From Candidatus Woesearchaeota archaeon (GTDB lineage Archaea; Nanobdellota; Nanobdellia; Woesearchaeales; SM23-78), in the NCBI GenBank assembly GCA_016935175.1, contig JAFGRK010000014.1:1-41578 (forward strand): DNA of 41,578 nucleotides. The letters are read 5' to 3'. The notes under the pieces were generated by a model that made no database searches, was not told the DNA's origin, and worked only from the letters and a program-made list of their open reading frames with translations. A program made the translations under genes and the position numbers. How positions within the stretch are numbered: position 1 is the first letter of the stretch; each line of letters opens with the position of its first letter. Positions 11,118 through 41,431 of the stretch are shown here, in pieces.

Positions 11118-11179
11118 GAAGAAAACCATGCCTGTGCAAAAAAAGGGTAAGAAAGCAAAAAAGAGGGTGAACAAGCATA

Positions 11180-13645: not shown

Positions 13646-13678
13646 ATTAAGGATAAATAGATTAATGTCAGGATTTCT

Positions 13679-13692
13679 AAACATTTAAAAAA
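13679..13692 (+). promoter_or_regulatory. TATA box of the tRNA thiolase gene
   Basis: AAACATTTAAAAAA lies about 22-25 nt before ATG 13713, giving a leaderless transcript. Confidence 0.6.
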
Positions 13693-13712
13693 AGGCTTGA
13701 TTTCTAAAGGCC

Positions 13713-15986: not shown

Positions 15987-16030
15987 CATTCATTTAATAT
16001 TTTAATATTTCTTAATCCAATAATCCCAAT

Positions 16031-16048
16031 GCAAACATTTAAAAAATA
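16031..16048 (+). promoter_or_regulatory. BRE/TATA box upstream of 16070
   Basis: GCAAACATTTAAAAAATA lies about 25 nt before ATG 16070, fitting a leaderless start. Confidence 0.6.
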
Positions 16049-16069
16049 CAGCCACCATTAATTGCCATA

Positions 16070-16402: not shown

Positions 16403-16516
16403 ACAATAGTTAAACAATACTTAAAAAATAGGTAAACCATAGGTAAGGTAGAAGTAACGAAGAGGCAAGGCAGAGGTAAAGAAGGGGTAAATGAGAGGCG
16501 AGGGAGAGGCAATTCT
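16403..16516 (+). repeat. Degenerate purine-rich GGTAAA repeats
   Basis: Units such as AGGTAAACAATAG, TTAAACAATACTT, TAGGTAAACCATAG and AGAGGTAAAGAAGGGG recur at intervals of about 9-14 nt, with nearly no T-rich or C-rich sections on this strand. It separates the winged-helix gene from corA and replaces an ordinary promoter region. Confidence 0.5.
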
Positions 16517-16527
16517 TCAATAACAAA

Positions 16528-17517: not shown

Positions 17518-17573
17518 AAGCTGGCAAATGGATATGAAGGGAATAGAATATGAGGGGATAAATATTTTTTGGA

Positions 17574-18503: not shown

Positions 18504-18568
18504 GGCTCACCTCTATCTATAGGATTTATTTTTTTGTCCTTTATAAATTATTTTATTTTTGCAAGAAA

Positions 18569-19255
18569 CTACTTAATTTTCCTAAGGAAGCCCATCAAGG
18601 CATAGGCTTCCCTCTTGGTCATGAAGCTCTTGGTTATCATCCTCTTCCACACCTTCAGCTGGGTCTCCTCTTTTGCCTTGTTGAGGAAATCCATCTTCTT
18701 CATGGCTTCATTTAGCATCTTAATAATCTGTTCCTTCTCCCTCTTGCTTATTGGCGCGTAAGGCTTAAAGGTTTCCTTGGTGTTCCTCTCCTTGAAAACT
18801 TCATATAGCAATACTGCCAAGGCATGGCTTAGGTTAAGGGACTTATAGCTCTTGCTAGTTGGGATGGTGACCAGGAAATCGCACAATTTGACTTCATTGT
18901 TCCTAAGGCCATCACTCTCCCTGCCAAGTATGAGTGCAACCCTGCATTTCTTTAGCTCCTTGAGCTTGGCTGCCAGCTGCGAAGGGCTCATAGGACTTCG
19001 AGGGATGTTATAGTCAGTCCCTAGCTTAGAAGTGGTGCCTATGAGGTAGTCGAATTTCCCAAGGATGTTGAACCCGTTGATCTTGGCCTTGTCCAATATG
19101 TAGTTGGCGTTCTTGGCAAGCCTCCTGCTCTCCTCGCTTATCTTGCACTTGGGATGGATGAGGACTAAGTTCTTCAATCCAAAATTAGCCATCACCCGGG
19201 CGACGCTGCCCACATTGCCTGGGTGCTCAGGCTCAACCAAGACAACAGTAATCAT
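18569..19255 (-). CDS. SpoU/TrmH-type RNA 2'-O-methyltransferase (TrmJ-like)
   Basis: SPOUT-class methyltransferase with the trefoil-knot fold. The first motif is EPEHPGNVGSVARVMANFG. Motif 2 is ALILGRESDGLRNNEVKLCD and motif 3 is IPTSKSYKSLNLSHALAVLLYE, the last very typical of TrmJ (tRNA position 32) enzymes. A C-terminal helical extension (EKEQIIKMLNEAMKKM) also fits TrmJ. The start is placed at ATG 19255 (MITVVLVEPEH) and not at the in-frame ATG 19294. A TATA-like TTTTTAAAC lies on the minus strand at about 19275-19283, and homology begins at MITVV. The product is 228 residues. Confidence 0.88.
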   Translation of the reverse strand: MITVVLVEPEHPGNVGSVARVMANFGLKNLVLIHPKCKISEESRRLAKNANYILDKAKINGFNILGKFDYLIGTTSKLGTDYNIPRSPMSPSQLAAKLKELKKCRVALILGRESDGLRNNEVKLCDFLVTIPTSKSYKSLNLSHALAVLLYEVFKERNTKETFKPYAPISKREKEQIIKMLNEAMKKMDFLNKAKEETQLKVWKRMITKSFMTKREAYALMGFLRKIK

Positions 19256-19333
19256 GTGCCTGAGAATCAGCAATGGGTTTAAAAAGTTAACCATAAAAGA
19301 AAAGGTTGAACTGAAAGGTTATGACTAGAAGAA

Positions 19334-20491
19334 TCATATCAAAGCCCTGATTATGGGGGTTATTACAAGTATGATTATTATCCCTACCATGAAGATGGTT
19401 AGCTTGGTCCATACCCTGTTGCCCTTCTTCTCACCCATGACCTTGGACAGGCTTACCTGGATCATCCTTCCGCCATCTACAGGTCCTATGGGCAATAGGT
19501 TGGCAAGCCCTAAGCCTAGGCTTAGCATGAATATCCAGCTGAACAGCTCTACTATGATGAAGAAAAGCTTCATAAGGTCAGAATCATCATTTTGATACCT
19601 GGTCTCAAGGTTCACTCCTATCACTGGCTTGCCAGGCTCCTCTTCCTTGCTGGTAGTCACTACCTGGTATTCTGAATCCTCATTGGCTATTATGACTCTC
19701 TCGCCTACTCCTATATTGTCAAATGCACTGATGAACTCATAAGTGCTGTTAACTGTTATGTTGTTGACGCGGTTATACACCACACCTGGCTTAAGGCCTG
19801 CAAGGTCTGCTGGCATACCAGGAGTAACCTCAGTGAAGCTCACCCCTATCGGGTGCACATACGCATTGGCTATGGGGTTGAAGACTGCTATCACTATGAG
19901 TATAACCAGGCCTGCTAATAGTATATTGGAGAAGGGGCCTGCTGCGAAGATGCTGTACTGTACCACATCGCTCTCCTTCTTCATCTTTTTCTCATCAGGC
20001 TCAACAAAAGCTCCTATCAATGGCCCGAAGAACACTATGCCTGAGTTGAGAACAGGCAAGCCATGGGCCTTTGCCACAATGCCGTGGCTGAACTCATGTA
20101 TGAGCACCACTATGAACAGTGCTGCTATGCCGTACCAGAAAGGAACGAATATAGGGCTTCCAGGTATGTGAACCCCTGGCAATACAGGTGCTACTACTGC
20201 TGGCGCACCGGGCACAAACACTAAGTCATACACTCCCTTGACAATGAAATAAAGTATGAATAGCATCCCAGCATAGCCTATCCCTATTCCTATGTAGCCT
20301 AGTATCTTGATAAACTCAGAATGCTTGGTGCCTATCCTGTCAATCAGCTTCAAGCCTATTTTGGTCTTGTAGAGCGCTATGAACTTGGCCTGGAAAGTGA
20401 ATTTATCCCTTTTAGCGGTGATGAACAGGATTATCAGGATGTAGAACAATATTACCCACTTGTACTCTGTGATGAATCCTAAAACGTCCAT
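19334..20491 (-). CDS. Site-2-type intramembrane metalloprotease (M50)
   Basis: Zinc protease that cuts membrane proteins within the bilayer. The active-site motif is HEFSH at 132-136 in a membrane segment (ALFIVVLIHEFSHGIVAKAHG), and the third ligand lies in LLPIGPVDGGRM in a late segment. A PDZ domain sits between them (TPGMPADLAGLKPGVVYNRVN). At least five or six further membrane segments are visible. The 385 residues match archaeal S2P-like proteins. The last gene codon lies close to the TrmJ-like gene, which starts on the same strand further on. The likely targets, such as membrane-tethered regulators, are not indicated. Confidence 0.92.
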   Translation of the reverse strand: MDVLGFITEYKWVILFYILIILFITAKRDKFTFQAKFIALYKTKIGLKLIDRIGTKHSEFIKILGYIGIGIGYAGMLFILYFIVKGVYDLVFVPGAPAVVAPVLPGVHIPGSPIFVPFWYGIAALFIVVLIHEFSHGIVAKAHGLPVLNSGIVFFGPLIGAFVEPDEKKMKKESDVVQYSIFAAGPFSNILLAGLVILIVIAVFNPIANAYVHPIGVSFTEVTPGMPADLAGLKPGVVYNRVNNITVNSTYEFISAFDNIGVGERVIIANEDSEYQVVTTSKEEEPGKPVIGVNLETRYQNDDSDLMKLFFIIVELFSWIFMLSLGLGLANLLPIGPVDGGRMIQVSLSKVMGEKKGNRVWTKLTIFMVGIIIILVITPIIRALI

Positions 20492-20530
20492 TCTACTACT
20501 GCTAATTAACCCATGCCTTTTTATGTGTTT

Positions 20531-20713
20531 TGCTTTTAGTGGGCGCGTCCATAATGTCGTTTAGCAGCATAAGGTAGAATTTCTTTGGCAGCAGAAGAAT
20601 ACTGACAAGGTTGACGCCCCAGCCGGGGAAAGTCAGTTATCACAAATGAGAATCTAAAGTTTGAAGCTGCTAAACGCGAACAAAGTGAGATTCTGGGCGC
20701 ACCTGCTTTTAGT
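20531..20713 (+). repeat. Candidate MITE-like structured insertion
   Basis: A direct repeat TGCTTTTAGT at 20531-20540 and 20704-20713 brackets the stretch. Inside are the inverted repeat CGTTTAGCAGC/GCTGCTAAACG (20558-20568 with 20666-20676) and a hairpin ACTGAC...CCCC-AGCC-GGGG...GTCAGT (20601-20637). The direct repeats look like a target-site duplication. It fills the gap between the S2P gene and L40e; no ORF is seen. Confidence 0.45.
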
Positions 20714-20755
20714 TTTAAGCACTAACAGATTTACAAATAAATAGAGGAAAAGCCC

Positions 20756-20917
20756 TTACTTCTTCTTGATAGTCCTTAGGATCCTTGAGCCGCACTTCCT
20801 GCATTTGACCTTGCCTGCAATTACTTTGAGTGTGGGGGCCCTTATCTTGCTCTTGCACTTCCTGCAGACAAAGATGTTCTTAAGAATCCTTGCCTCAGCT
20901 TCTGGGAATTTTACCAT
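20756..20917 (-). CDS. rpl40e: 50S ribosomal protein L40e
   Basis: A 53-residue ribosomal protein, the archaeal counterpart of the L40 part of the eukaryotic ubiquitin fusion. It opens MVKFPEAEARILKN and has a zinc ribbon with FVCRKCKSKIRAP and VKCRKCGSRILR, that is four Cys in two CxxC pairs. The length and the basic KKK ending are as expected. ATG 20917 follows GGTGATACTA on the minus strand. The next gene upstream on the same strand is aIF5A, so the two may form a translation operon. Confidence 0.95.
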   Translation of the reverse strand: MVKFPEAEARILKNIFVCRKCKSKIRAPTLKVIAGKVKCRKCGSRILRTIKKK

Positions 20918-20962
20918 TAGTATCACCTATTTATACATGTAATGTATGTGCTCGTATATGCG

Positions 20963-21364
20963 CTACGCAGTTTTTATTTGTTTAAGGATTCTATCTTCAA
21001 GTATTACCCAGTAGACAACTATTGTGCCCTCATTGACTGAGCCCTTGAGCTCCTCAGGTATCTTCAGGTCAAAGGTCTCATAGGTCTCTGAGTCCATTAC
21101 ATTAGCTGTGTCATCTGTTACGCTGAGCACCTGGGCGTTCCTCTTGTCAATGACCGGAACATCAATCTCATCATGGCCCGGGGCCAATACCTGCCTTTTC
21201 TTGCCATCAACAATGCCCACTGCCTCAAGCCTGACCTTTGCGTGGCCGTGCTTTCCTGGCCTTGAAATCTGTATGCCTGTGACTGTGCAGGCAGCTCCCT
21301 CTACAACAACGTAGTTGCCTATCTGCAACCCGCCAATGCTCTTCCTTTTCACTTCTCCGCTCAT
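20963..21364 (-). CDS. Translation factor aIF5A
   Basis: Archaeal IF-5A, which promotes peptide-bond formation and termination on the ribosome. The hypusine loop is ISRPGKHGHAKVR with Lys38 as the modified residue. The first half is the SH3-like domain, the second an OB fold (APGHDEIDVPVIDKRNAQVLS). The start is ATG 21364 (MSGEVKRKSIGG). The GTG at 21373 belongs to the ribosome binding site GCGGTGAGAGAT and is rejected. At 133 residues it is normal. Its TATA box, with an upstream CGCAACC element, lies at about 21429-21446, giving a leader of about 45 nt. Confidence 0.95.
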   Translation of the reverse strand: MSGEVKRKSIGGLQIGNYVVVEGAACTVTGIQISRPGKHGHAKVRLEAVGIVDGKKRQVLAPGHDEIDVPVIDKRNAQVLSVTDDTANVMDSETYETFDLKIPEELKGSVNEGTIVVYWVILEDRILKQIKTA

Positions 21365-21428
21365 ATCTCTCACCGCAAAAATGATTATGCTGCTTAATAT
21401 AGCTCATTCTCAGGGATTATGTTGGCTT

Positions 21429-21446
21429 TAAAAAGGTTGCGAAAAA
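21429..21446 (-). promoter_or_regulatory. aIF5A promoter with CGCAACC element
   Basis: On the minus strand this reads TTTTTCGCAACCTTTTTA. Near-identical sequences stand before the genes starting at 24392 and 29042, where a second C is present (CCGCAACC). Confidence 0.6.
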
Positions 21447-21448
21447 GC

Positions 21449-21733
21449 CTTTGTTTACACAAAGCTAGCAAAAGAGCAAAGCTCTTTTGGAGCTCCAAAA
21501 ACATTTGGTTTTTGATAGCCTTTAGGGAAAGCAGGGGCATGCGCTCGCTTCGCTCACTTAGTCCCAATGTTAAAAAAGTCGCCACAGCAGCCTACGGCTA
21601 CGCCATGAACGAGAACAAAAGTTCTAGAGAATGGCGTCGGCTGTGGTGAAAAAAGGTACGCCTTTTGGCACTCAAAACTCGGGGTTTTGTTGAGCCCGGG
21701 GTCGCCCCACACGGGGTGACGAGGGCGACTTTT
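21449..21733 (+). repeat. Hairpin-mosaic element A
   Basis: Fills the gap between aIF5A and the lipase gene. First part: CAAAAGAGC-AAA-GCTCTTTTG (21469-21489), palindrome GGAGCTCC, CAAAAAC-N5-GTTTTTG (21496-21514). Second part: AAAAGTCGCC (21574-21583) pairs with GGCGACTTTT (21724-21733). Inside are CCACAGC/GCTGTGG (21582-21588, 21640-21646), ACGCCAT/ATGGCGT (21600-21606, 21631-21637), AGAAC-AAAA-GTTCT, AAAAGG-TACG-CCTTTT (21651-21666), module CTCAAAAC...GTTTTGTTG (21671-21692), and GTCGCCCC/GGGGTGAC (21701-21720). The pieces form a cloverleaf-like fold. Confidence 0.6.
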
Positions 21734-21746
21734 CAACCTTGCTGCC

Positions 21747-22760
21747 TTATTCAGAACTCTCTGGCTGTATAATCAGTATCTCCTTCTTGACTATATTATA
21801 TGCGTCCGGGCAGGTGTTAGGGTTGCTTATTGGGCCTTTGGGGTAGCTCTTCCTGAAGTCCAATAGCTCTGTGTGGCTGCACCCTTCTATCTGGTAGTAC
21901 TTGGCACCTGCCAGCTTGGTGGAGTCCAGCTTCACTATCACGTCTGAATTGCTGAAGAAGCTCTTCTCATAGTCTATGCCTTTTGGGTCAAGAATGGCAA
22001 GGCCGAAACTGACACTCTCATTAGCAAAATTATAAGTCCCTATGCTTACAATCCTATCCCTGTTGCTGGTGTCATCCTTGTCCAGCTGGTTGAGGAAATC
22101 GCTGCCAGGCCTCATCTGGTCTACTTCTTTCTCCCTGCCTGTGAACAGGCGTATTGCCATCAATATTATCTCCGTCCTGGTGAAGGAGTTAAACCCATAG
22201 TGGGGAGTTGCCAGAGTGATTAGCTTTTCAACGTGCTCATTTCCATAGTCAACCATGTATTTCCTTGACACCAACCCTCCCATGCTATGGCCTATCAATA
22301 TCACCTTGTCAGAGCCAGTGCAGTTCATCACCAGCCTCACTGCATGGTCTAGCTCCTTGGCATAATCCTCTATGCCTCGGTTTAAGTTGTCTGTGTAATA
22401 GTATTCTGAGCTCACGCTTATCCCTACAGGCCACTTCTCAGGGCATATTGCCTCGTTGCTGTAGCGGTCAATCAGTCCTCTAGCGATGGCCACTCCTTCG
22501 CGCTCCAGCTTTACCTCGTATTCAAGGTAATCAATGCTCTTGCCCATCCAACCGTGCACAAAGATTATGGGGTAAGGGGATGCTTCTGCTAAAGTTATGT
22601 TCTCATCTTCGTTCTCACCTGGCTTGATGACTTCAGAATCACTGCTTGGGTATTCATACGGGGGGCTTCTTACTTCCTTGAAGTAAAGGAAGGAGGTCCA
22701 GACAAGCAGCAGGACCAGCAGGAGCATCAGCATAATCACTTTCCTGATTGTTTTTCTCAT
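21747..22760 (-). CDS. Membrane-anchored lipase-like alpha/beta hydrolase
   Basis: Alpha/beta hydrolase of the lipase/PGAP1-like type, probably outside the cell on a membrane anchor (residues 8-26, VIMLMLLLVLLLVWTSFLY). The oxyanion region is PIIFVHGWMG (64-73), the nucleophile Ser159 is in LIGHSMGGLVSRKYM, followed by LATPHYGFNS. Likely acid is Asp273 (SDVIVKLDS) and base His296 (EGCSHTELL), so the triad is complete. At 337 residues it is a single domain. Start ATG 22760 has a minus-strand TATA-like GAATTTAAAATAG about 25 nt upstream. The substrate is unknown; ester or lipid hydrolysis is the best guess. Confidence 0.85.
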   Translation of the reverse strand: MRKTIRKVIMLMLLLVLLLVWTSFLYFKEVRSPPYEYPSSDSEVIKPGENEDENITLAEASPYPIIFVHGWMGKSIDYLEYEVKLEREGVAIARGLIDRYSNEAICPEKWPVGISVSSEYYYTDNLNRGIEDYAKELDHAVRLVMNCTGSDKVILIGHSMGGLVSRKYMVDYGNEHVEKLITLATPHYGFNSFTRTEIILMAIRLFTGREKEVDQMRPGSDFLNQLDKDDTSNRDRIVSIGTYNFANESVSFGLAILDPKGIDYEKSFFSNSDVIVKLDSTKLAGAKYYQIEGCSHTELLDFRKSYPKGPISNPNTCPDAYNIVKKEILIIQPESSE

Positions 22761-22849
22761 GCCAAGCAGGAAGTGGCTGCTATTTTAAATTCTTTTGGCA
22801 ATGGCAAGGATTATCAGGCAGGGCCCTGGTGATAGCCCTGGTTGCAATC

Positions 22850-22915
22850 AAAAAGTATTTATACCAGTTATCCCAAGATTAAGTGTTGCTTTATTAGGGT
22901 GGGTGGTTTTTTTTC
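22850..22915 (+). promoter_or_regulatory. TATA box followed by oligo-T, possible short RNA
   Basis: AAGTATTTATACC at 22851-22863 is a good TATA box. About 45 nt beyond it lies GGTTTTTTTTCG (22906-22917), an oligo-T stop. Any RNA made would be only about 30 nt, unless transcription reads on to the small membrane gene at 23004. Confidence 0.35.
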
Positions 22916-23003
22916 GCTTATAGGCGGCGCTGCCTTGAAAAGATGCTAATAAGGAAATTTTTTAAATATCTGCGGCTTTGGCGCCGCGGGGCTGAATGAA
23001 ACA

Positions 23004-23177
23004 TTGGTAAGGATTGATATCGCTTTGCCAGTAGCGACTTTTTTCGCCATCCTGGGAGGGGTGACCTTTATGGGCAATCATGAGTCCATAGGGATGCTCT
23101 TGCTAAGGGCAGGCATGTTTGCTGCTGGAGTAAATATCTTGGTGTCTCTCTTCTATGCTTTGCTAAGCTATGAGTAG
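23004..23177 (+). CDS. Tiny membrane protein with non-ATG start
   Basis: A 57-residue frame from TTG 23004 (61 residues if CTG 22992 is used) with LPVATFFAILGGVTFMG and MLLLRAGMFAAGVNILVSLFYALL as two clear membrane segments. A TATA-like TTTTTTAAATATC at 22958-22970 stands about 25 nt before 22992. No ATG lies at the start of the hydrophobic region; the first internal ATG would lose the first segment. The strongly patterned hydrophobicity and the promoter support a real gene. Family unknown. Confidence 0.45.
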   Translation: MVRIDIALPVATFFAILGGVTFMGNHESIGMLLLRAGMFAAGVNILVSLFYALLSYE

Positions 23178-23251
23178 GCACATCAATACTCATTAGGAAA
23201 AGGGAATAGGATTCTTGATTATGTTATTTACTAATCAGGCTAATGATAGAA

Positions 23252-23608
23252 TCAAGCAGATAGGACTGCAGTGATAAGCCAAACTGCAAAGAGGGCTATC
23301 AGCAACACCCCAAAAGCTTTCCTGAGTTTGTCACTCAACGACTTAACCACAAGCATGGTGAGGCCTTCTCCGAATGGTATGGCAAAGAAAAGCACCAATG
23401 ATGCCAATTCAGGAGCCTCCACTAGCTTCAATGGGAATGCATTGAAGATTACAAAGTTGATGAAGCTCATTCCTAAGAGCAGGTAGCCAAAGGTTTTCTT
23501 CATTTTATCATCAAGCCCCTTGAGCCTTAGCATGATTATCCCGATAATAAGATAGATGATGACTGAAGCAATCATTGCCAGCCCCATAATCAAGACATTA
23601 TCTACCAT
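23252..23608 (-). CDS. Four-helix small membrane protein
   Basis: A 118-residue protein that is nearly all membrane: segments about 5-28 (VLIMGLAMIASVIIYLIIGIIML), 39-58 (TFGYLLLGMSFINFVIFNAF), 68-88 (LASLVLFFAIPFGEGLTMLV) and 97-117 (AFGVLLIALFAVWLITAVLS), with short basic loops between. It converges on the tiny membrane gene at 23004. No signature of a transporter or enzyme is visible. Family unknown. Confidence 0.65.
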   Translation of the reverse strand: MVDNVLIMGLAMIASVIIYLIIGIIMLRLKGLDDKMKKTFGYLLLGMSFINFVIFNAFPLKLVEAPELASLVLFFAIPFGEGLTMLVVKSLSDKLRKAFGVLLIALFAVWLITAVLSA

Positions 23609-23728
23609 GCGAATGATAATGGCTGCTTGCTTATTTAAAGCTTGCCAAAACCAGGCGCTTTGCCAGCCTAAAACAGAAAAGCTTTAATAATGATGAGCTT
23701 ATGACAGGTGTAAGTGTGAGGTGCTATT

Positions 23729-23851
23729 ATGGATGAGGAGCCTGCAGAAGTGGCTGAAGAATACCAGTACGGCATTATTGAAGAGTTAAAGAGGATCAAT
23801 TCCACTCTTGAGAAGATTAGTGCTAATCTCGAGCTGATTGCCAAGAAGTAA
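23729..23851 (+). CDS. 40-residue acidic helical protein
   Basis: ATG 23729 follows GTGAGGTGCTATT, a good ribosome binding site, and opens a 40-codon ORF. The protein starts MDEEPAEVAEEYQ, then has heptad-like IIEELKRINSTLEKISANLELI, so it should form one amphipathic helix that oligomerises or binds a partner. It ends LIAKK. A TATA-like GCTTTAATAATG lies at about 23681-23692. It converges with the gene at 23883. Function unknown. Confidence 0.6.
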   Translation: MDEEPAEVAEEYQYGIIEELKRINSTLEKISANLELIAKK

Positions 23852-23882
23852 AGGGCTTTCAGAGCTAAAAACTTAGCCATAA

Positions 23883-24392
23883 TTAGTTGAATTTCCTCTT
23901 ATTAAGCTCTGCTTGCCTCTCAAATGCGCTGTAGAATAAGGTGAGGACTTTCACAGTGTTCTCTATGTTATCAGTCTCAAAAGAGAACTTCTCTATTAGG
24001 TTATATATGTGCGGGTTTGACTTCTTGACCATGCCATAACGCCTGAAGACGCACAAGTCATTGTTCATCCTGTATTCTCTATCAATATCCTTGATGGCTT
24101 TTCTTGTTACAATAGGCAGCGGGCCAGTGGACTTCATCATATGGTACACCAATGCTCCCATTAGTGTGACCCCGTCCTCTACCTTTGAGTTGGTAGTTAG
24201 GTAAAGAAGATAGCTTGCAGCCTCTGAGTTCTCATTTGCAAGGTTATTGGCAAGGATGCCTTGTGGCACTCGGTCAGAAAGCCTGTCAGCTAGCAAGCCC
24301 ATGGCTAATCCTTCACTCACAAAAGGCAGCTCTGTGATTAGGTCTGAGAGCTCTTCGCGATCCACCTCAAATGCATCTGAAGCTTCGTCCAT
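23883..24392 (-). CDS. Hypothetical helical protein
   Basis: A soluble, mostly helical protein of 169 residues beginning MDEASDAFEVDREELSDL. No membrane segment, signal or known motif is seen. A basic patch (VTRKAIKDIDREYRMNNDL) and an all-helical C-terminus could bind nucleic acid or protein. ATG 24392 lies about 28 nt from a TATA box with the CCGCAACC element, a leaderless start. The promoter is directly next to repeat element B. Family unknown. Confidence 0.65.
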   Translation of the reverse strand: MDEASDAFEVDREELSDLITELPFVSEGLAMGLLADRLSDRVPQGILANNLANENSEAASYLLYLTTNSKVEDGVTLMGALVYHMMKSTGPLPIVTRKAIKDIDREYRMNNDLCVFRRYGMVKKSNPHIYNLIEKFSFETDNIENTVKVLTLFYSAFERQAELNKRKFN

Positions 24393-24419
24393 GGCTAGCT
24401 TAAGGTGGATGTAGCAGCA

Positions 24420-24437
24420 TAAAAAGGTTGCGGAAAA
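24420..24437 (-). promoter_or_regulatory. Promoter with CCGCAACC element
   Basis: Minus strand TTTTCCGCAACCTTTTTA, about 28 nt upstream of ATG 24392. It shares its upstream element with the promoters at 21429 and 29071. Confidence 0.6.
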
Positions 24438-24450
24438 TAGGGGATTGCGT

Positions 24451-24602
24451 TTAAAAAGTGCTCGTCACCCGCCAGCGCCAACAAAATCTTTTAGGATTTT
24501 GAGCGGCGGTGGCGAGGCGGGGGTCGCCCCAGTCGGGGTGGTGCCGGAAACGCTGGCACCTCAAAAGCCTTAGCTTTTGTTGCCGAGTAGAGCACTTTTT
24601 AA
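24451..24602 (+). repeat. Hairpin-mosaic element B
   Basis: A perfect 13-bp terminal inverted repeat TTAAAAAGTGCTC/GAGCACTTTTTAA (24451-24463, 24590-24602) encloses: CACCCGCC pairing with GGCGGTG (one bulge); module CTCAAAA...TTTTGTTG in reverse orientation (24479-24503); the block GGGGTCGCCCC-AGTC-GGGGTG (24520-24540), differing from element A only in two loop bases; GGTGCC/GGCACC; and a forward module CTCAAAAGC-CTTA-GCTTTTGTTG (24560-24582). No ORF is present. Confidence 0.65.
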
Positions 24603-24674
24603 GAGATTATTCATTCAGAAAATAAGGCGCCAAATCCATAAAGCTTAAAAACTTCAGGCTTCAGGGAGATATGT

Positions 24675-25661
24675 ATGGAAGGCATGCACAGGAGGGATTT
24701 CCTGAAGAAATCATCTTTGCTCACCTTAGGCTTGCTTGCAGCGCCTGAAAAGCTTTTTTCATCTTCTAGCCTTGATGATGCAATATCCCTGAATGAGGCA
24801 GTATCCTTGTCTGAGGACCAAAAGATAGTTGTCAACCTGCCCGGATATGAGCTTAAGCTCTTTAATTATCAGGATGGTAAGATAGCCCGGGAATACAAAT
24901 TCACAGTGGGGGTTGGCAAGGGAAGGTATTGGCGCCACCCAACACCCATAACCACTGGCAGGGTGGTTGACAAGAGGCCTTGGATCCATTTCTTTTTTGA
25001 GAACGACAAGCCAGAGCGGGGAGCAAAGATAGGTGATGTAATAACTGAGACTTGGACTTTTGACGGGCAAGGAAACCCCGTGAAGTACCCTATGCCTTAT
25101 GAGAAGATGAGAGGTCTTGGTACCTTGATGAGGATGCCATCAGGCTATATGAACCCTGGCTTTGTCATCCATTCCACGACTGACGAGTTCACACTTGGGG
25201 CTGCCACTTCTAATGGTTGCATAAGGCTAGGCATGGAAGACATGCTAAAGCTCTATGAGCTGGTTGCTCCTGATGCCAAGCAGAAAGGAGGGCCGAAGCA
25301 GCCTATTCCATTGAAATATCCTGTGCCTATACAGACCTTGTATGAGCTGGTAGAGATAAAGGATAGCAGAGTGGTGATTCACAGGGATATCTATGACAAA
25401 GGCATTGACTATGTAGATGAGTTCAAGAAGCAGTTGGCAGCCAGTGATTGGCTAAAGGAATTAACAGGGGATGATGCGCTTTCCATGTTTGATTATGACT
25501 TGATAAAGAAAGAGTTTGCTGGTGCTCAGGAGCAGTTCAAGGAAGCTCACAGGGATATACTGCTGAAGCTGTTCAAGCCTTTCCCTGATAACTATATCTC
25601 TCCTGAGATGAGGCAGAAGCTGCATAAGGCTTATAGCATTGCTGACTTGATGAGAAAATAA
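24675..25661 (+). CDS. Tat-exported L,D-transpeptidase (YkuD)
   Basis: YkuD-fold enzyme with a twin-arginine signal: HRRDFLKKSSLLTLGLLAAP (residues 5-24), so it should be exported folded. The catalytic domain (about 50-215) has TPITTGRV, the His166 of FVIHSTTDEF and the nucleophile Cys182 in ATSNGCIRLGMEDM. The usual SHGC is SNGC here. About 110 residues follow as a mostly helical C-terminal domain (QLAASDWLKELTGDD...). In bacteria such enzymes cross-link peptidoglycan or attach proteins to it. Archaea lack peptidoglycan, so either another amide or amine is processed, or the target belongs to a bacterial partner. ATG 24675 has GGGAGAT as ribosome binding site. Confidence 0.85.
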   Translation: MEGMHRRDFLKKSSLLTLGLLAAPEKLFSSSSLDDAISLNEAVSLSEDQKIVVNLPGYELKLFNYQDGKIAREYKFTVGVGKGRYWRHPTPITTGRVVDKRPWIHFFFENDKPERGAKIGDVITETWTFDGQGNPVKYPMPYEKMRGLGTLMRMPSGYMNPGFVIHSTTDEFTLGAATSNGCIRLGMEDMLKLYELVAPDAKQKGGPKQPIPLKYPVPIQTLYELVEIKDSRVVIHRDIYDKGIDYVDEFKKQLAASDWLKELTGDDALSMFDYDLIKKEFAGAQEQFKEAHRDILLKLFKPFPDNYISPEMRQKLHKAYSIADLMRK

Positions 25662-25682
25662 ATAAACGCGCAGTGGCGATTC

Positions 25683-26426
25683 TCAGAAGAAGTCCCAGAA
25701 GCTTCTTTTCTTTCTCTTACGCGCATTGGCTGAGGGAGCATTGAAAGTGAAAGCCCTCTTCACCTGCTTTTTTGCCAGGAAATGCTTTAGCTCCTTTTCA
25801 ATGTTAGGGTTCTCAAAGGCCTTTTCCTGCTGCCTGAACTTCCTGGTGTGGTGGTAATTCTTGCCATTCTTACTCTTGAACTTGTGCTTCTTGTGCAAAA
25901 GCTCATGGTACATTATGTAGTCTAGCAATTCCTTGGCTTTTTCATCGTCTGCTTTTCCTTTGCTGTTTTCAGGGTTGAATATGCTTGATATGGTTACTGT
26001 GTTAGAGCCGTACTCATAGCATCCTAGCTTGGAAAAGCTTTGGCTTCCCCACCTCAGGTTAGGCTTGGGCAAAAACCCATTGAAGTACTTGTCATTAACC
26101 CTGGTGAAGCTCTGTTCCAGCAGAGGGTCTGCCTGGGTCACCTCTGAATAATCCCCTATTTTCCTGATGAAATTCTCGTACAAGTCCATATTAATAGTAT
26201 TTTTCTTTTCCTTGTAGATTTTCACTAGAAGGTGCTGGATAAGCCCTATCTTTATCTCATCACTGACTTTTTTCCAGTCATAGGAAAGCCTGAAAGTCAT
26301 TGAGAGCGCAGTGTACCTGGCATTGGCGTTATAAGCGTTGAAAGCCCTTGAGTATTTGATGCCCATTGCCTTTGACAGCTTTTTTTCTGGGAAAAGTTCA
26401 AAGAATGCGCGCTCTGCAAGGTTCAT
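25683..26426 (-). CDS. SprT-like zinc metalloprotease domain protein
   Basis: A 247-residue protein with a SprT-type zincin: KYFNGFLPKPNLRWGSQSFSK (about 113-133) precedes HELLH at 174-178, and YHHTRKFRQQEK (192-203) gives the third His. This order is typical of SprT/Spartan proteins, which degrade proteins cross-linked to DNA. The N-terminal 100 residues are helical and not recognised, and the C-terminus is basic (ARKRKKRSFWDFF), which may bind DNA. The start overlaps the upstream gene by 4 nt, so the two are translationally coupled. Confidence 0.75.
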   Translation of the reverse strand: MNLAERAFFELFPEKKLSKAMGIKYSRAFNAYNANARYTALSMTFRLSYDWKKVSDEIKIGLIQHLLVKIYKEKKNTINMDLYENFIRKIGDYSEVTQADPLLEQSFTRVNDKYFNGFLPKPNLRWGSQSFSKLGCYEYGSNTVTISSIFNPENSKGKADDEKAKELLDYIMYHELLHKKHKFKSKNGKNYHHTRKFRQQEKAFENPNIEKELKHFLAKKQVKRAFTFNAPSANARKRKKRSFWDFF

Positions 26427-27424
26427 TTTTCCACTTTCAGCTCTAGAAATTTGGTAACCATCTCTGCCTGCTGCACCAGCTTTTTGGCGTGAGGCACTGG
26501 AGCAAGCCCTGTCTCGATTTCCAGTGTAACTGTGCTTACAGGGTTGCAGGCTAATATTTCTTTTGCCATGTCTAGCAGGTATATGCTTACAGGGTCTTTT
26601 TTTATTTCTATCTGCTTGTCACCATAAACCTTGCCGCCAAGATCGTGAACTCCAGTTATGTGCAGCTGGTAGACTCTGCCAGCAGTGGCTTTGATTATGT
26701 TCTTTATGCATTCATCCTTGCTTTCCTGCAGCAATCCCTCGTTTGCAAGGTTGTGTATTGATATGAACACGTGGGCGACATCGAAAAGAAAGCCTAGGTT
26801 AGGGTTCTGGGATATCCTCTTGTCATTGAATATGCTTGATAAGAACTCAGGCATGTTCATCAGGCCAGCGCTCCTTAGGAACGCCAGGTGCTTGCCAGTG
26901 ACATCATTCTTCCTTTCCTTTACCAGGTTGAAATTAGTGTAGGGATAAGTCTCAAAAATAACTTTTTTCTTATTATCATCAGGCAAGCCTTGGTTTATCA
27001 TCTTTTCCAGCTTGACCAGGTTCATTATCATACTCTTTTTTAGCTTGTCCTCGGGCAAGCTTGGGAGTGTGCTCTCATCAAACGCAACCCCTTGCAGGGC
27101 AAAAAGCTCTAGCCTCCAGCTGGTGTAATGGATGTGGAAGCCTATTACTTTGGCATCTGAATTGATGATTGCCTGGATTATCTTCTGGTTTTCCTTTCTC
27201 TTAAGATTGCTTGTCAAGCCTTTGTCAAATAGGTTAATTCCTAAAGGCTTGATAGGGTTATGAACTGACATCTTCAGGCCTGCAGCCTTGAAACTTTCCA
27301 TCTCATCATAGAAGTTATATCCCTCAACTCCTGTTATTAATGGGCAGCTGCTAAGAATCTTCAAGGCTTCCTTGTCATTAGCAAGCCCCTTGCACCATGA
27401 GACATAAAGCTCGACCATTTTCAC
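26423..27424 (-). CDS. DUF692-like TIM-barrel protein
   Basis: A 333-residue TIM-barrel protein whose conserved acidic and His residues fall in the order of DUF692/xylose-isomerase-like enzymes: SVHNP, GFHIHYTSW, VIFETYPYTN, FLFDVAHVFISIHN, VYQLHITGVHDLGG and VTLEIETGLAP. The members LFDVAHVF..HN and QLHITG match the DUF692 signatures DVNN.Y.....HN and EIHLAGH. Characterised DUF692 proteins such as MbnB are multinuclear iron enzymes that modify Cys residues of peptides. An endonuclease-IV-like barrel is an alternative reading. It precedes and overlaps the SprT-like gene, and no partner such as MbnC is next to it. Confidence 0.55.
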   Translation of the reverse strand: MKMVELYVSWCKGLANDKEALKILSSCPLITGVEGYNFYDEMESFKAAGLKMSVHNPIKPLGINLFDKGLTSNLKRKENQKIIQAIINSDAKVIGFHIHYTSWRLELFALQGVAFDESTLPSLPEDKLKKSMIMNLVKLEKMINQGLPDDNKKKVIFETYPYTNFNLVKERKNDVTGKHLAFLRSAGLMNMPEFLSSIFNDKRISQNPNLGFLFDVAHVFISIHNLANEGLLQESKDECIKNIIKATAGRVYQLHITGVHDLGGKVYGDKQIEIKKDPVSIYLLDMAKEILACNPVSTVTLEIETGLAPVPHAKKLVQQAEMVTKFLELKVEK

Positions 27425-34939: not shown

Positions 34940-36313
34940 ATGCTTTTCAAAAGAAATAATGGTGCCTTGGCCATTTTAGCTATGCTGTATGATGACCCAG
35001 AAAGGAATTATGTGTGGTATCTTAAGCATCAAGTTAATTCGATTGGCTTTTCTGGGGGTTGCACTGTTAACTTGCGCAAGGTTCTCTCTGATTTTGCCTT
35101 CAATGGCATAGGCCCCTATTTTAAGGCGTTAATTGTCTATGACAAGGAAAATAATACTTTTTTCCTGGAGAACCCTGATAAACACAAAGTCTTTCTTGAT
35201 GGGGAAGAGTTCCCTGGGGGCAAGAGAGAAAAGCTTGAAACTGGCAGCGTCATATCCCTCGGAGCAATAGGGCAGGATTTTGTCTTCTACCCTATAGAGT
35301 TTTGCATCTCTACAAGAGGGACTGATTATAACCTTGCAATGAATAAGCCTACAGTTATCGGAAGGCAAGGGGATATAAAAGTCGCCCCTGAACTTCAGTT
35401 CCATGCCTCTGAAAGGCATTGCTCCGTCCAGTTTGACTTCAAGAAAAACAGGTTCTTTATCATGGACTTGGGAAGCGCCAACGGGACCTTTGTGAATGGC
35501 AAGAAGATTGGAAAATTTCCTAAGGTTTACCTAAAGGATAGAGATGAGATTCAGTTTGCGCCAGCGCATTATGGCTTCGAGGAACATTTAATTTATCGTG
35601 AATACGGGAGACATTTTCTAAAGGATAGAGAACTACACCATCTTCCTTCTGTTAAGCAGAGGATTGAGGAAGAGATAAAGGAGAAGGAATTCAATTCTTT
35701 CAAACAGAAATTTTATAGGGGTGTGGAAGAAATATTCAGCAAGCATGGCTTTTTAGATAATTCATCACATCAAAAGCCATTCAGGTGGCGGGAGTTGCTT
35801 GGGAGCAGGTTCTGCGGATTTGGAAAAGGCGGTGATTGCTTAGAGCCGTGTTCCCATGATTACCAAAATACGAAGAACCCAGTATGCCAGCATTGCTTCA
35901 AGATATTCATCAATCCGACATCAGATGGCTTCTTGGAAGTTTTTGACAGGGCGCTTCAAATATTGGATGATAATCTTAAGGAGTTCAAAGCAAAAGTGAT
36001 TGGCAGCGCTGACGGCTTTCGGATGAACTCTTGCGAGGAGATAATCGTCTATTGCAGGAGCAAGGAGGATTGCAATAAAAGCGTGAAAGAGGCCCATGAA
36101 AGCGTATTGCAATTGGTTGACATACTTAAGAAGGGGTTGAAAGACCTTGAGAAATACGCTGACCCTATTCGCTCGAGAAGTTATTTATCTAAGAAAGTGA
36201 CTGGGCTGGTATATTACAGGCAGGGAGGCTCCTATCATAGGGGGGGCGAAAACTTTGATAGGCCAGAATTGTTTGCAGGTGAGAATCGATACCTTTTTAA
36301 TACGAACATATAA
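34940..36313 (+). CDS. FHA-domain protein, possibly with two FHA-like folds
   Basis: A 457-residue protein with a clear forkhead-associated domain at about 140-215: TVIGRQGDIKVAPE, then ERHCSVQF and DLGSANGTFVNGKKIG, with the phosphothreonine-binding Arg and Ser in place. The first 110 residues (VNLRKVLSDFAFNGIG, VFLDGEEFPGGKREKLETGSVISL) look like a second, degenerate FHA-like fold. After a helical stretch comes a Cys/His cluster (FCGFGKGGDCLEPCSHDY ... VCQHCFKIF) that may hold zinc, then a helical C-terminus. FHA domains read phosphothreonine; RIO1 is the only protein kinase seen in this window. Start ATG 34940 from TATA spacing. Confidence 0.75.
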   Translation: MLFKRNNGALAILAMLYDDPERNYVWYLKHQVNSIGFSGGCTVNLRKVLSDFAFNGIGPYFKALIVYDKENNTFFLENPDKHKVFLDGEEFPGGKREKLETGSVISLGAIGQDFVFYPIEFCISTRGTDYNLAMNKPTVIGRQGDIKVAPELQFHASERHCSVQFDFKKNRFFIMDLGSANGTFVNGKKIGKFPKVYLKDRDEIQFAPAHYGFEEHLIYREYGRHFLKDRELHHLPSVKQRIEEEIKEKEFNSFKQKFYRGVEEIFSKHGFLDNSSHQKPFRWRELLGSRFCGFGKGGDCLEPCSHDYQNTKNPVCQHCFKIFINPTSDGFLEVFDRALQILDDNLKEFKAKVIGSADGFRMNSCEEIIVYCRSKEDCNKSVKEAHESVLQLVDILKKGLKDLEKYADPIRSRSYLSKKVTGLVYYRQGGSYHRGGENFDRPELFAGENRYLFNTNI

Positions 36314-36365
36314 TGTTTCTAATTTTTCAAAAACAATTAAAAAGACTGCATTTATCCTTGGTTGT

Positions 36366-36983
36366 ATGAAAGGACTGCTATTACTGAGCTCAGGCATTGA
36401 CAGCCCTGTAGCTGGAGCCATGATGATTGAGAAAGGAGTTGAAGTGATAGCATTGCACTTGAGGATGCACAACTCTGAGGCAGAGGACAAGAAAGTAGTT
36501 GACTTGGCAAAGAAGATTAATGTCAAGCACTTATTCTTTGCAAGCATAATCCAGGCACATGATGCTTATCAGGAGAAGTGCAACCCTCGCTACACCTGCA
36601 TCTTCTGCAAGAAGACAATGCTTAGGGTGGCAGAGAAGCTTGCAGAGAAGGAGAAATGCGATTTCATCATAACTGGCGAGAACATGGGACAGGTGGCAAG
36701 CCAGACATTGGATAATATGGCTGTAATCATACCAGCTGTCAAGATGATGGTGCTCCAGCCATTGCTGAGCTTTGACAAGAACGACACAGTCAAACTGGCA
36801 AAGAAATTCAGCACTTATGAGCTGTCAATACAGAAAAGCCCTGGCTGCCCTTATCTTCCGCAGCACCCAGCAACCACCTCAACCATTGCAAAGCTGGAGG
36901 CAGAGGAAGCGAAGATTGAGATTGATAGATTGATTGAGGAGAGTTTGAAGACTATTAAGAAGATTGCCCTTAACAAAGCGTAA
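36366..36983 (+). CDS. ThiI-like PP-loop sulfurtransferase domain protein
   Basis: Stand-alone AANH/PP-loop domain of the ThiI family, which adenylates tRNA U8 for 4-thiouridine formation. The nucleotide motif is LLLLSSGIDSPVAGAMM, with SSGIDS instead of SGGIDS. The second motif ITGENMGQVASQTLDNM is diagnostic of ThiI. A CxxC pair is in YTCIFCKKTMLRVAEK. The N-terminal ferredoxin-like and THUMP domains that bind tRNA are missing, as is a rhodanese domain, so at 205 residues it is half of a normal ThiI. The start ATG 36366 (MKGLLLLSSG) follows 52 bp after the FHA gene. Confidence 0.85.
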   Translation: MKGLLLLSSGIDSPVAGAMMIEKGVEVIALHLRMHNSEAEDKKVVDLAKKINVKHLFFASIIQAHDAYQEKCNPRYTCIFCKKTMLRVAEKLAEKEKCDFIITGENMGQVASQTLDNMAVIIPAVKMMVLQPLLSFDKNDTVKLAKKFSTYELSIQKSPGCPYLPQHPATTSTIAKLEAEEAKIEIDRLIEESLKTIKKIALNKA

Positions 36984-38341: not shown

Positions 38342-39076
38342 TTAGGGAGCTGCTGCCCCGATAGTGGTTATGAGCTTGAAAAACAAGAGCATCACAACCC
38401 CTATTATTAAGGCCATGATCAGCATCATGAGCATTATTGCCAGGAAAGCCCTTAGCTTGCTAATCCCCTGGTACCTGGATATTCCTATTACTTGCGTGTA
38501 AAGCGTGTGCACCATTGACGCCAGGTATAGCACTGCATTCACAGCCAAGTAGCTTACTGGTATAAGGCTTATCATCCCTGAGAAGCTGGCAGGAGGCGTT
38601 GCTGGCAGCTCTAAAGGCTGCACAATGCTAAGGATGAAGTTGGCAATGTTTATGAAGAATCCGTAAACCACTCCTATAACCATGGCATAAGTGGTAGGCT
38701 TGAAAGTGTTATAGTATCCTTTCCTCCCTCCGAATATCAATACTCCAAGGTGGTTGATGCCTGAGCTTATGAAAGGGATTGCAAAGCCAATGCCTGCGGC
38801 AACTGCAATGCCGAAGAATGAGAACACCACTGCCAAGCCTCCCGTAGGCTGCTGAAGGGCTGAAGGGATGCTTAAGAGCACACTGGTGAACTGGGCTATC
38901 ACCAGGATTATCACGAAGTAAATCAAGGGAGGGAAATATTCCTTCTCGCCAGCCACTCCCTCAAAGAATGCCTTCGGGGAGAAGAAAAGCTTCTTTAGCT
39001 TATCAAATTGGTTGTTGAAAGCAGGCTTTTGCCCTGATTGCCTGATTGGTTTAGCTCTCATGACTTGATTTGCCAT
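38342..39076 (-). CDS. YIP1-family multi-span membrane protein
   Basis: A 244-residue protein of the YIP1 type. The hallmark is the soluble N-terminus leading to FFSPKAFFEGVAGEKEYFPPLIYFVIILV, which is the PxxFF...P pattern before the first segment (read here in two parts, SPKAFFEGV and FPPLIYF). Five membrane segments follow (including GIAVAAGIGFAIPFISSGI, VIGVVYGFFINIANFIL and AFLAIMLMMLIMALIIGVVML). The start is ATG 39076 because AGGTGATATTA upstream of it is the ribosome binding site, and the GTG 39085 lies inside that. The role in archaea is unknown; eukaryotic relatives act in membrane trafficking. Confidence 0.75.
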   Translation of the reverse strand: MANQVMRAKPIRQSGQKPAFNNQFDKLKKLFFSPKAFFEGVAGEKEYFPPLIYFVIILVIAQFTSVLLSIPSALQQPTGGLAVVFSFFGIAVAAGIGFAIPFISSGINHLGVLIFGGRKGYYNTFKPTTYAMVIGVVYGFFINIANFILSIVQPLELPATPPASFSGMISLIPVSYLAVNAVLYLASMVHTLYTQVIGISRYQGISKLRAFLAIMLMMLIMALIIGVVMLLFFKLITTIGAAAP

Positions 39077-39147
39077 TAATATCACCTGATATAAGGATTA
39101 TGGCTTCATATTAAAAGTTTGCTATTAAGAAATCTATGATGAATAAA

Positions 39148-39200
39148 ATTCACTCAACACAAGCCTTTACCAAGCCATAGAATAGCGGGCATGGCTTTTC
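39148..39200 (-). pseudogene. Relic of the pyrG 3' end (left repeat)
   Basis: 53 bp matching the 3' end of pyrG at 39807-39859 with two mismatches. On the minus strand it still reads EKPCPLFYGLVKACVE plus stop in frame, where pyrG has EKPGPLFYGLVKACVE. It lies just beyond the end of the acetyltransferase gene. It looks like one of a pair of repeats left by an insertion. Confidence 0.75.
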
Positions 39201-39213
39201 TAGAATCTTCAAG

Positions 39214-39759
39214 CTAATATTTTAATCGTAATTCCCAAGAAGTAGAGTTATTGCTCTTGTACTTTTCATTAGGTACCTGCATAAATCCAAGCCTCTGATA
39301 AAGCTGAGTTGCTGCTTTGAATTCTTTCCTGGTTGTCAAGAATAATTTTTCAAAGCCTAATACGCCTGCTTTTTGTATTAGGTCACTCACTAAAGCCTTG
39401 CCCAGCCCTTTTCCCCTTAGTTCAGGAATAAGGTATATGTCAGTAATCTCTCCAGTCATAGGCTCTTTTTTCGGATTCTTCTGTATAAGCCCTCCGCAAC
39501 CAACAACTTCTTCAGAGCGCTTTACAGTATAAAACACTCTTTTCTCAAGGTCTTGACCATTTGGGCCTCTAAATTCAGATTCAAAAACTTCAGGATGCCG
39601 ATTATACCAAGCAGATAATCTTGGGCACAGCTCATTGAAGATGGCGTATTTTAATTTTACTATTCCTTCTAAATCACCATTGCCTGAAGGCATAATAAAA
39701 AGCCCATTACTATCAAATGCCTTTTTTGTCTTTGCATAGGGCTCATAAAATTTATTCAT
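39214..39759 (-). CDS. GNAT-family N-acetyltransferase
   Basis: A 181-residue GNAT. The acetyl-CoA loop is EITDIYLIPELRGKGLGKALVSDLIQKA (motif R/K-G-x-G-x-G/A as RGKGLG) and the C-terminal strand-helix GFEKLFLTTRKEFKAATQLYQRLGFMQV is typical. The long N-terminal 70 residues fit small-molecule or protein acetylases. Start ATG 39759 (MNKFYEPYAK) has a TATA-like ATTTAAAAATAG about 25 nt upstream on the minus strand. The gene is more AT-rich than its neighbours and sits between the two copies of the pyrG 3' end, so it was probably inserted here. Confidence 0.85.
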   Translation of the reverse strand: MNKFYEPYAKTKKAFDSNGLFIMPSGNGDLEGIVKLKYAIFNELCPRLSAWYNRHPEVFESEFRGPNGQDLEKRVFYTVKRSEEVVGCGGLIQKNPKKEPMTGEITDIYLIPELRGKGLGKALVSDLIQKAGVLGFEKLFLTTRKEFKAATQLYQRLGFMQVPNEKYKSNNSTSWELRLKY

Positions 39760-39806
39760 CAATATCAGAATTTTTTAGCTATTTTTAAATTTTTCATTTA
39801 ATCACT

Positions 39807-39859
39807 ATTCACTCAACACAAGCTTTTACCAAGCCATAGAATAGCGGGCCTGGCTTTTC
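39807..39859 (-). repeat. pyrG 3' end, right repeat copy
   Basis: The functional copy: last codons and stop of pyrG. It is a direct repeat of 39148-39200, 659 bp away, with the acetyltransferase gene between them. Confidence 0.75.
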
Positions 39860-41431
39860 AAGCTTGCTTTTTAGCTCTGGATGGGCTTGGGTTCCTACAA
39901 AGTACTTGTGCTTTTCCTTTGGCAGCTCTATGAACTCAACTAGCTTGCCATCTGGGCTCATGCCTGAGAACACTAATCCATGCTTTTGAAGCACTTCATG
40001 ATATTCAGGGTTGACCTCATACCTGTGCCTGTGCCTCTCGCTAACTTCTTTTTGTTTGCTGTACAGGGCCCATATTATTGTGCCTGGCTTCATAATAGCA
40101 GGATAAGCTCCCAGCCTCATGGTTGCTCCCTTGTCCTTGACTTCTTTTTGTTCAGGCATGATATCTATGACTGGGTTCTTGGTCTTCTCATCGACTTCTG
40201 TGGTGTTGGCATCTTTCAAGCCGCAAACATTCCTTGCAAACTCAACAGTTGCTAATTGCAATCCAAGGCATATGCCTAGGAAGGGTATGTTTTTTTCGCG
40301 GCAATACTGCACTATTTGTATCTTGCCTTCTATTCCCCTGCTGCCAAACCCTCCAGGAACAATCACTCCATCTATTCCTTCAAGCAATTTTTTTGCATCT
40401 GCCTGGCTGCCCACCTTTTCAGTGTCTATCATTTTAACGCAAATCTTGGTTTTGAGATTGGCGCTGCAATGCTTCAATGCTTCCAATATGCTTGCATATG
40501 AGTCTTCTAGCTTAGTATATTTGCCACAGATAGCAATATTCACTGTCTTTTCTAGCTTGTCAAGGTTATCAACCAGCTTTTTCCACTCAGGGCTTACACC
40601 TGAGTCAATGCAAAGCTTTTCCTTGATTATGCTGTTAATGCCTTCATCTGAGAATATCACAGGCATTTTGTAGACGCAGTCAACATCAATGCCAGATATC
40701 ACTCCATTTTCTTCTACATCGCAGAAAGTGCTAATCTTCTTTTTTATGTGAGCATCTAGGTATTCAGAGCACCTGCCGATGATGATGTCAGGGTCAATGC
40801 CTCTTTCCCTTAATAATGCTACTGACTGCTGGGTTGGCTTGCTCTTCTGCTCATGCACATTAGTAGGTATGGGAATGTAAGTCAGGTGAACATACAAGAT
40901 GTTGCATTCTCCTACTTCTCTCTTGAGCTGGCGGCAAGCCTCAATGTAAAGCTCGTTCTCAATGTCGCCAACAGTGCCTCCTACTTCTATGAGCACTACA
41001 TCTGCTTTTTCATCATCAGCCACCTTGTAGAACCATTCCTTGATATGGTCAGTTACATGAGGGATTAGCTGGACTGTCTTGCCAAGATAATCCCCTCTTC
41101 TTTCCTTGACTCTCAAGGCTTCGTACACCTTGCCCATAGTAAGGTTCCAGTTGAACTTGCAATTAATGCCAAGAAACCTTTCATAATGGCCAAAGTCCAT
41201 GTCAACCTCTCCTCCGTCATCAAGAACAAACACTTCGCCATGCTCAACAGGGTTCATGGTTCCAGGGTCAACATTAAGGTAGCCGTCGCACTTGATAGGA
41301 ATAACCCTCAAGCCAGCTTTTGTTATCAAGTTGCCAATAGTAGCAGCAGCAACGCCTTTTCCCAAGCCAGAGAGAACACCGCCTGTAACGACAATGAATT
41401 TCTTGTTGTCATTCCTCTTTTTACGCGGCAT
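39809..41431 (-). CDS. pyrG: CTP synthase
   Basis: Glutamine-dependent CTP synthase, converting UTP to CTP. The synthase domain (about 1-275) opens KKFIVVTGGVLSGLGKGVAAATIGNL with the P-loop SGLGKG, and contains ALRVKERRGDYLGKTVQLIPHVT. The class-I glutaminase domain (about 295-540) has PGGFGSRGIEGK, the nucleophile Cys in FLGICLGLQLA and the His/Glu pair in GTQAHPELKSK. The length of 540 residues is standard. ATG 41431 follows a minus-strand TATA-like CTTTAAATATAA. Its 3' end is duplicated at 39148-39200. Confidence 0.97.
   Translation of the reverse strand: MPRKKRNDNKKFIVVTGGVLSGLGKGVAAATIGNLITKAGLRVIPIKCDGYLNVDPGTMNPVEHGEVFVLDDGGEVDMDFGHYERFLGINCKFNWNLTMGKVYEALRVKERRGDYLGKTVQLIPHVTDHIKEWFYKVADDEKADVVLIEVGGTVGDIENELYIEACRQLKREVGECNILYVHLTYIPIPTNVHEQKSKPTQQSVALLRERGIDPDIIIGRCSEYLDAHIKKKISTFCDVEENGVISGIDVDCVYKMPVIFSDEGINSIIKEKLCIDSGVSPEWKKLVDNLDKLEKTVNIAICGKYTKLEDSYASILEALKHCSANLKTKICVKMIDTEKVGSQADAKKLLEGIDGVIVPGGFGSRGIEGKIQIVQYCREKNIPFLGICLGLQLATVEFARNVCGLKDANTTEVDEKTKNPVIDIMPEQKEVKDKGATMRLGAYPAIMKPGTIIWALYSKQKEVSERHRHRYEVNPEYHEVLQKHGLVFSGMSPDGKLVEFIELPKEKHKYFVGTQAHPELKSKLEKPGPLFYGLVKACVE

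Follow-up and report, generated by a model that had tools for sequence, protein, structure and literature searches.

The question raised by this locus is how a complete acetyltransferase gene has come to stand between two copies of the 3' end of pyrG, where one copy ends the working gene and the other stands free. The locus lies in a window of 41,578 nucleotides (the whole stretch of DNA that was analysed), with pyrG, on the minus strand, at the window end. The window is contig C28 of the draft genome (1.22 Mb, 35 contigs) of a woesearchaeal DPANN archaeon, whose closest named relatives are Candidatus Woesearchaeota metagenome genomes. How DPANN symbionts, whose genomes are very small, acquire new genes is for the most part an open question. 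The answer developed here, to which we give about as much belief as doubt, is that a foreign one-gene segment was captured at the 3' end of pyrG in a homology-driven event, most likely with no dedicated integrase.

The first-pass annotation described a 53-bp direct repeat with two mismatches as the tail of pyrG, with one copy ending the intact gene and the other beyond a GNAT gene, and both parts of this description are confirmed. The repeat extends to 56 nt with three mismatches (95% identical) at a spacing of 659, and no other direct repeat in the 41.6-kb window is as strong (E 6e-18 when the window is compared with itself by blastn). It consists of the last 17 codons of pyrG, the stop codon and 2 nt (Table 1). 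When the two copies are read in the frame of pyrG, they give LEKPGPLFYGLVKACVE and LEKPCPLFYGLVKACVE, each followed by a stop; of the three codons that differ, two are changed synonymously, a bias which for the window alone is not significant (P 0.12). The 42-nt core of the repeat has two copies only in the 1.22-Mb genome, and no third is found when up to three mismatches are allowed. The 603 bp that separate the copies are a foreign complete gene, not duplicated sequence. The only inverted pair near the ends of the unit (14 nt, 39137-39150 and 39748-39761) does not stand out from other pairs nearby.

Table 1. Features of the pyrG locus in the window (feature, position, strand, evidence or remark).
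pyrG (CTP synthase, 540 aa), intact target	39809..41431	-	ORF; PF06418 (E 4e-109) and PF00117
Repeat copy 1: end of working pyrG (final 17 codons, stop codon, 2 nt)	39807..39862	-	probably the acquired tail
Repeat copy 2: pyrG-tail relic, stop codon included, directly next to the GNAT stop (39214-39216)	39148..39203	-	probably the displaced original tail
Inserted unit, repeat to repeat, 659 bp (payload and one tail)	39148..39806	-	
GNAT acetyltransferase ORF, complete; start TTG 39762 or ATG 39759	39214..39762	-	PF00583; phrog_1249
TATA-like box TTTAAAAAT, candidate archaeal promoter, probably leaderless	39789-39781	-	about 26 nt before ATG 39759; read from the sequence
Yip1-domain protein gene, next past the relic	38342..39085	-	not found in congeners
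thiI-like gene, convergent neighbour of pyrG	36255..36983	+	PF02568; tblastn synteny in G002, G005 and G006

The payload belongs to the acetyltransferase family PF00583, with an E value of 1.1e-18 and a score of 68.1 bits against a gathering score of 20.7. It is the only ORF in the unit, so that the earlier description of a one-gene payload with no integrase is borne out; compared with a casposon or a DDE transposon, the unit is without Cas1 and without transposase, and it has no terminal inverted repeats that stand out. The gene is foreign in composition, with a GC content of 37.5% and a GC3 of 33%, against 44% and 48-56% in the pyrG, Yip1, MTase and FHA genes. It is also very patchy in distribution: when 371 genomes of the phylum were searched, full-length relatives were found only in G269 (58%) and G392 (49%), and neither of these adjoins pyrG or has bounding repeats. 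No homologue was found in phages, and the matches in plasmids are partial, with less than 40% identity. With a TATA-like box some 26 nt ahead of the ATG, it is plausible that the GNAT gene is expressed from this candidate promoter of its own. Beside the relative in G269 (locus L390, G269:C13, near 7950-8250 and 11675) there is a MITE-like element, which is short, has GGCTCCATCCAAAAA as its inverted ends and is flanked by a repeat GGTCTGGTGGG; a gene 3.7 kb off has this end sequence as its final 11 codons.

Consider now how such a unit could arise by homology-driven capture. The incoming foreign DNA, from a relative and either taken up or carried on a small circle, would have brought the GNAT gene together with its own version of the last 17 or so codons of pyrG and the stop codon. 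Recombination through the short conserved coding tail would have joined it to the chromosome at one end, and the second junction would have been closed by an illegitimate or homology-driven event. The acquired tail would then complete a working pyrG, while the displaced tail of the host would stay behind the payload as a non-functional relic. The coding tail of a housekeeping gene may in this way serve as a homology handle, and insertion there would keep the gene working. We infer that copy 1 is the acquired tail, because of the synonymous differences and because of one codon, which is AAA in copy 1 and AAG in the relic and in three congeners; the nature of the catalyst is likewise inferred.

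The first-pass annotation proposed that the same site be compared in related genomes, in search of empty sites. In all four congeners whose pyrG was found (78-81% protein identity), the tail repeat and the GNAT gene are absent after pyrG, but the neighbours of pyrG are others than in the window. In three of the four, pyrG and the thiI-like gene are convergent with a gap of 0.5 to 2.3 kb, and in the genome of the window the gap is 2.8 kb with four ORFs. The gap thus differs among congeners, and the spot is therefore variable. Among roughly 100 pyrG loci scanned in the order, a second pyrG tail occurs at one, in G330 (L075), as an independent duplication in which the tail copy lies 143 bp beyond pyrG and the relic starts within a few codons of the relic start in the window. 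The gene downstream of pyrG is the same in G332 (L086), a congener of G330, where no tail copy is present; this is an empty site. The G330 relic has a Leu codon (TTA) and a TAA stop in common with G332, as would be expected of a displaced original. For the exact locus of the window, no empty allele and no donor with pyrG adjoining the GNAT gene was found in the collections searched, and no pyrG tail relic was found at pyrG of 45 bacterial and 80 viral loci. Tail fragments in G034, G317 and G260 proved to be contig ends.

The scar, i.e., a gene tail followed by a payload and a relic of the tail, occurs at other genes as well. It was sought by a blind self-repeat scan that covered 854 kb, and by a stop-anchored scan at the protein level, which added further cases and from which paralogues and pseudogenes were removed by hand. 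The targets (rtcB, radB, a trmJ-like gene, DUF7121 genes, a viral-type gene and unnamed genes) are unrelated in sequence. The payloads range from nothing to MazE/ParE-like toxin-antitoxin genes, a DtxR and FTR1 pair and a Mom-like protein, the units from 58 bp to 2 kb and the relics from about 9 to 26 codons. At rtcB of G259, found by the blind scan, DtxR-like and FTR1-like genes stand between the tail (L072 9988-10039) and its copy (11327-11378). A viral-type gene of G013 (L329) has a tail relic with a Mom-like protein (phrog_1384) as payload, and in G025 (L371) two convergent genes have tail relics in nested units, one of which flanks a MazE-like antitoxin and a ParE-like toxin. Tail relics are present at the orthologous DUF7121 genes of G278 and G279 (L118, L392), at radB in two taxa (L185, L202) and at the trmJ-like gene of a congener (L032), here with one exact extra copy; 30 further radB loci of the order have none.

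The frequency of tail scars is about 0.5% of the genes scanned. They were seen in 10 of 2050 genes at DPANN loci and, as downstream tail relics, in none of 578 genes at 45 bacterial loci, a difference which is not significant (P 0.08). When the scan was anchored at gene starts instead, as a control, it gave a single orphan 5' duplication (L112), and otherwise paralogues and low-complexity matches. Orphan relics of 3' ends are more numerous than orphan copies of 5' ends. The loci L326, L142, L398, L406 and L178 were left out as paralogues, pseudogenes or cases of other geometry.

Several of these loci have features of their own. The rtcB gene at L072 (G259, 7107-11378) contains an intein, and its 3' end is duplicated 1339 bp on. 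At L329 (G013:C15, 12909-13973) the Mom-like ORF enters the relic out of frame and ends at a stop there. Both genes at L371 (G025, 12252-15001) keep a tail and a tail relic, and a C39-like peptidase is also among the payloads. At L118 and L392 (minus strand) the DUF7121 relics lie 58 and 154 bp after the gene, differ in length and have genome-specific residues; as read from these sequences, they may stem from repeated events at one gene or from concerted change. The radB relics lie 66-67 bp after the gene (L185 2528-3334, L202 1-353), and the tail of copy 1 with its stop codon is within a hairpin (GGGAATATTTCG ... CGAAATAGTCCC in L185). Local tandem duplication followed by divergence could account for the smallest units (58-67 bp). 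A different repeat is seen at L034 (G002, 11807-12798), where a unit of 37-57 nt with a hairpin and a ribosome-binding site (GCAGTCTAACCTGCGGGAGGTG) occurs in three copies before or between consecutive genes.

When the tail copies differ, the kind of difference tells something of their history. In the repeats found at the DNA level (window, G330 and G259), 12 codons are changed, 7 of them synonymously, where random change would give 2.6 (P 0.008), and strong identity stops 2-4 nt past the stop codon in all three. When all eleven tails are pooled, there are 36 synonymous and 23 other changes against 10 synonymous expected, a count in which the cases found by protein similarity are biased toward synonymous change by the way they were detected. 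The synonymous bias and the end of identity both fit tails that had each evolved as the end of a functional gene, in separate genomes with only the coding sequence in common, before they came together; they do not fit a recent local duplication that decays freely. Integration at a gene end follows the same logic, in that the incoming segment provides the working tail.

The search for a recombinase gave the following. None is present in the pyrG unit or in any other payload inspected. Two tyrosine recombinases are encoded in the genome, XerA on C9 and another on C6, which scores as XerA and near the integron-integrase model and stands beside an attC-like array, and it has no serine recombinase or resolvase. 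An integrase elsewhere with the same att sequence, and other payloads flanked by the same repeat, had been suggested as places to look; no copy of the pyrG repeat lies near either tyrosine recombinase, and no other payload bounded by it was found. No junction motif common to the scars was seen by eye, the 42-nt core is absent from viral contigs, and a larger element with a pyrG tail downstream of pyrG was found neither in roughly 100 genomes of the order nor in viral contigs. Among 20 loci chosen for an accessory tyrosine recombinase, a clear attL/attR pair is present in L332 only, at a tRNA gene, and for none of the accessory integrases of the order was the tail of a protein gene seen to serve as att; L329 has two integrases, and the gene with the tail relic there is a different one. 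The element at L332 (G047:C16, 9636-18678) is an ordinary one of about 9 kb in the tRNA gene, with perfect 52-bp att repeats and an integrase at one end, and it serves as control. The array on contig C6 of the window's own genome (G000, 16001-26970, locus L066) is integron-like, with the recombinase at 9440-10291 and attC-like sites at 3517-3654, 5109-5229, 6317-6463, 7049-7190 and 8061-8179; there are seven attC-like matches (one duplicated, one short) against 0.2 expected in shuffles, and the cassettes include a deaminase and an OmdA-like gene.

The main alternative to homology-driven capture is site-specific integration by a tyrosine recombinase at the 3' end of pyrG, either of a mini-element in trans or of a larger element which has since lost its integrase, like a CIME. 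Of site-specific integration as proposed in the first-pass annotation, the insertion with duplication of the tail is supported and an integrase is not; none with a matching sequence was found in the genome. Tail duplication is the classical outcome of such integration, with direct repeats that match the end of the target gene on both sides, and 56 nt falls inside the range of 29-69 bp for crenarchaeal att sites (PMC6563490). The genes pyrG, radB and DUF7121 have each been hit in two genomes, and the pyrG relics of the window and of G330 begin within a few codons of each other, a hint of site specificity. That relic lengths vary so little is, with these repeated hits, the main point for an integrase and counts against homology-driven capture, as it is not predicted by random illegitimate joining; homology-facilitated illegitimate recombination is not known to leave relics of 9-26 codons at the ends of genes. 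On the other side, the unrelated targets and the lack of a visible junction motif argue against one dedicated integrase and its att site, no integrase of the genome has this att, the core is missing from viral contigs, and the control att at L332 is perfect over 52 bp whereas the tail repeats differ by 5-25% or more. Since the copies differ by 5-25% or more, the genes are unrelated, and neither a shared junction motif nor a recombinase in the payloads is seen, homology-driven capture is favoured over an integrase in trans, which we rate as a lesser, though substantial, possibility.

The other alternatives are much less probable. A tandem duplication of pyrG, named in the first-pass annotation as a possible account of the relic, fits poorly, whether as a local duplication of the tail with later divergence or as a whole duplicate decayed to its tail: a foreign complete gene stands between the copies, the relic is just 56 nt with no further pyrG sequence, the similarity ends at the stop codon, and the changed codons of the DNA-found cases are mostly synonymous. 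As near-tandem, payload-free tail copies do occur in the clade (L118, L392 and L032, the last with its exact extra copy), this account is unlikely rather than negligible. That the contig is an artefact, in which strain variants were joined during metagenomic assembly, is hardly credible, draft genome though it is with its 35 contigs, as the copies differ at three sites and have different contexts, the upstream neighbour of the relic has no long k-mer in common with pyrG, and the same scar recurs in independent assemblies. Least probable of all is that the genome's integron-type integrase placed an integron cassette here, using pyrG as a secondary site. Both copies of the repeat end in GTTGAGT, which fits GTTRRRY, the supposed cassette is a single gene with the repeat directly behind it, and the second XerA/IntI-type recombinase of the genome has its integron-like array; against this, there is no inverse core RYYYAAC near the GNAT gene, no attC-like pair in the window and no fold of the repeat better than those of shuffles, and an integron would leave unexplained why the repeat is the tail of pyrG.

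If we return to homology-driven capture, the scar looks like a recurring, integrase-free route by which related archaea gain small genes. A more general form of this idea is that DPANN archaea have recombinase-free "tail cassettes", with zero to two genes between duplicated coding tails of essential genes, which spread via the conserved tail, so that any housekeeping 3' end is a docking site and a genome may have several scars; this we put forward tentatively, and consider it doubtful. The open papers searched describe neither a single-gene unit at pyrG nor a scar that recurs at many gene tails. Integron cassettes often carry GNAT and toxin-antitoxin genes. If the general idea is true, conserved coding tails are landing pads that need no integrase, and toxin-antitoxin and acetyltransferase genes travel as single units also outside integrons. 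Gene tail, payload and a relic with synonymous differences can all be read from sequence, and the scar may therefore be used to count and date small transfers and to find their donors.

Among known systems, the integrated elements of Thaumarchaeota (Krupovic et al. 2019, PMC6563490) are alike in that they sit at the 3' end of a conserved protein gene (14 of 68 elements are in 3'-distal regions of protein genes), have short direct repeats and restore the frame of the target by the element's own tail and stop. They are unlike the pyrG unit in being complex multigene elements (proviruses, casposons, ICE-like and cryptic elements), where here one gene occupies 659 bp with no recombinase, and pyrG is not among the targets listed for them (PMC6563490). 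CIMEs, or cis-mobilizable elements (PMC5704250), are also integrase-free segments between attL/attR-like repeats of a target gene end, but they have decayed from ICEs or IMEs and have their att in common with an element resident in the genome. For the pyrG unit no parent of this kind was found: roughly 100 genomes of the order and the viral contigs gave no larger element with the pyrG tail, and so no attL/attR in common with an ICE or IME family, by which a CIME is recognized. Archaeal integron cassettes (Ghaly et al. 2022, PMC9668308) are likewise single-gene mobile units, and the genome of the window also has an integron-like array, but the pyrG unit has no attC and its repeat is the coding tail of pyrG. 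Homology-facilitated illegitimate recombination, described in competent bacteria and in E. coli conjugation (PMC3240628), resembles the proposed capture in that foreign DNA is joined through homology on one side and illegitimately on the other; the donor is absent from the collections searched, and the homologous end is evident at pyrG.
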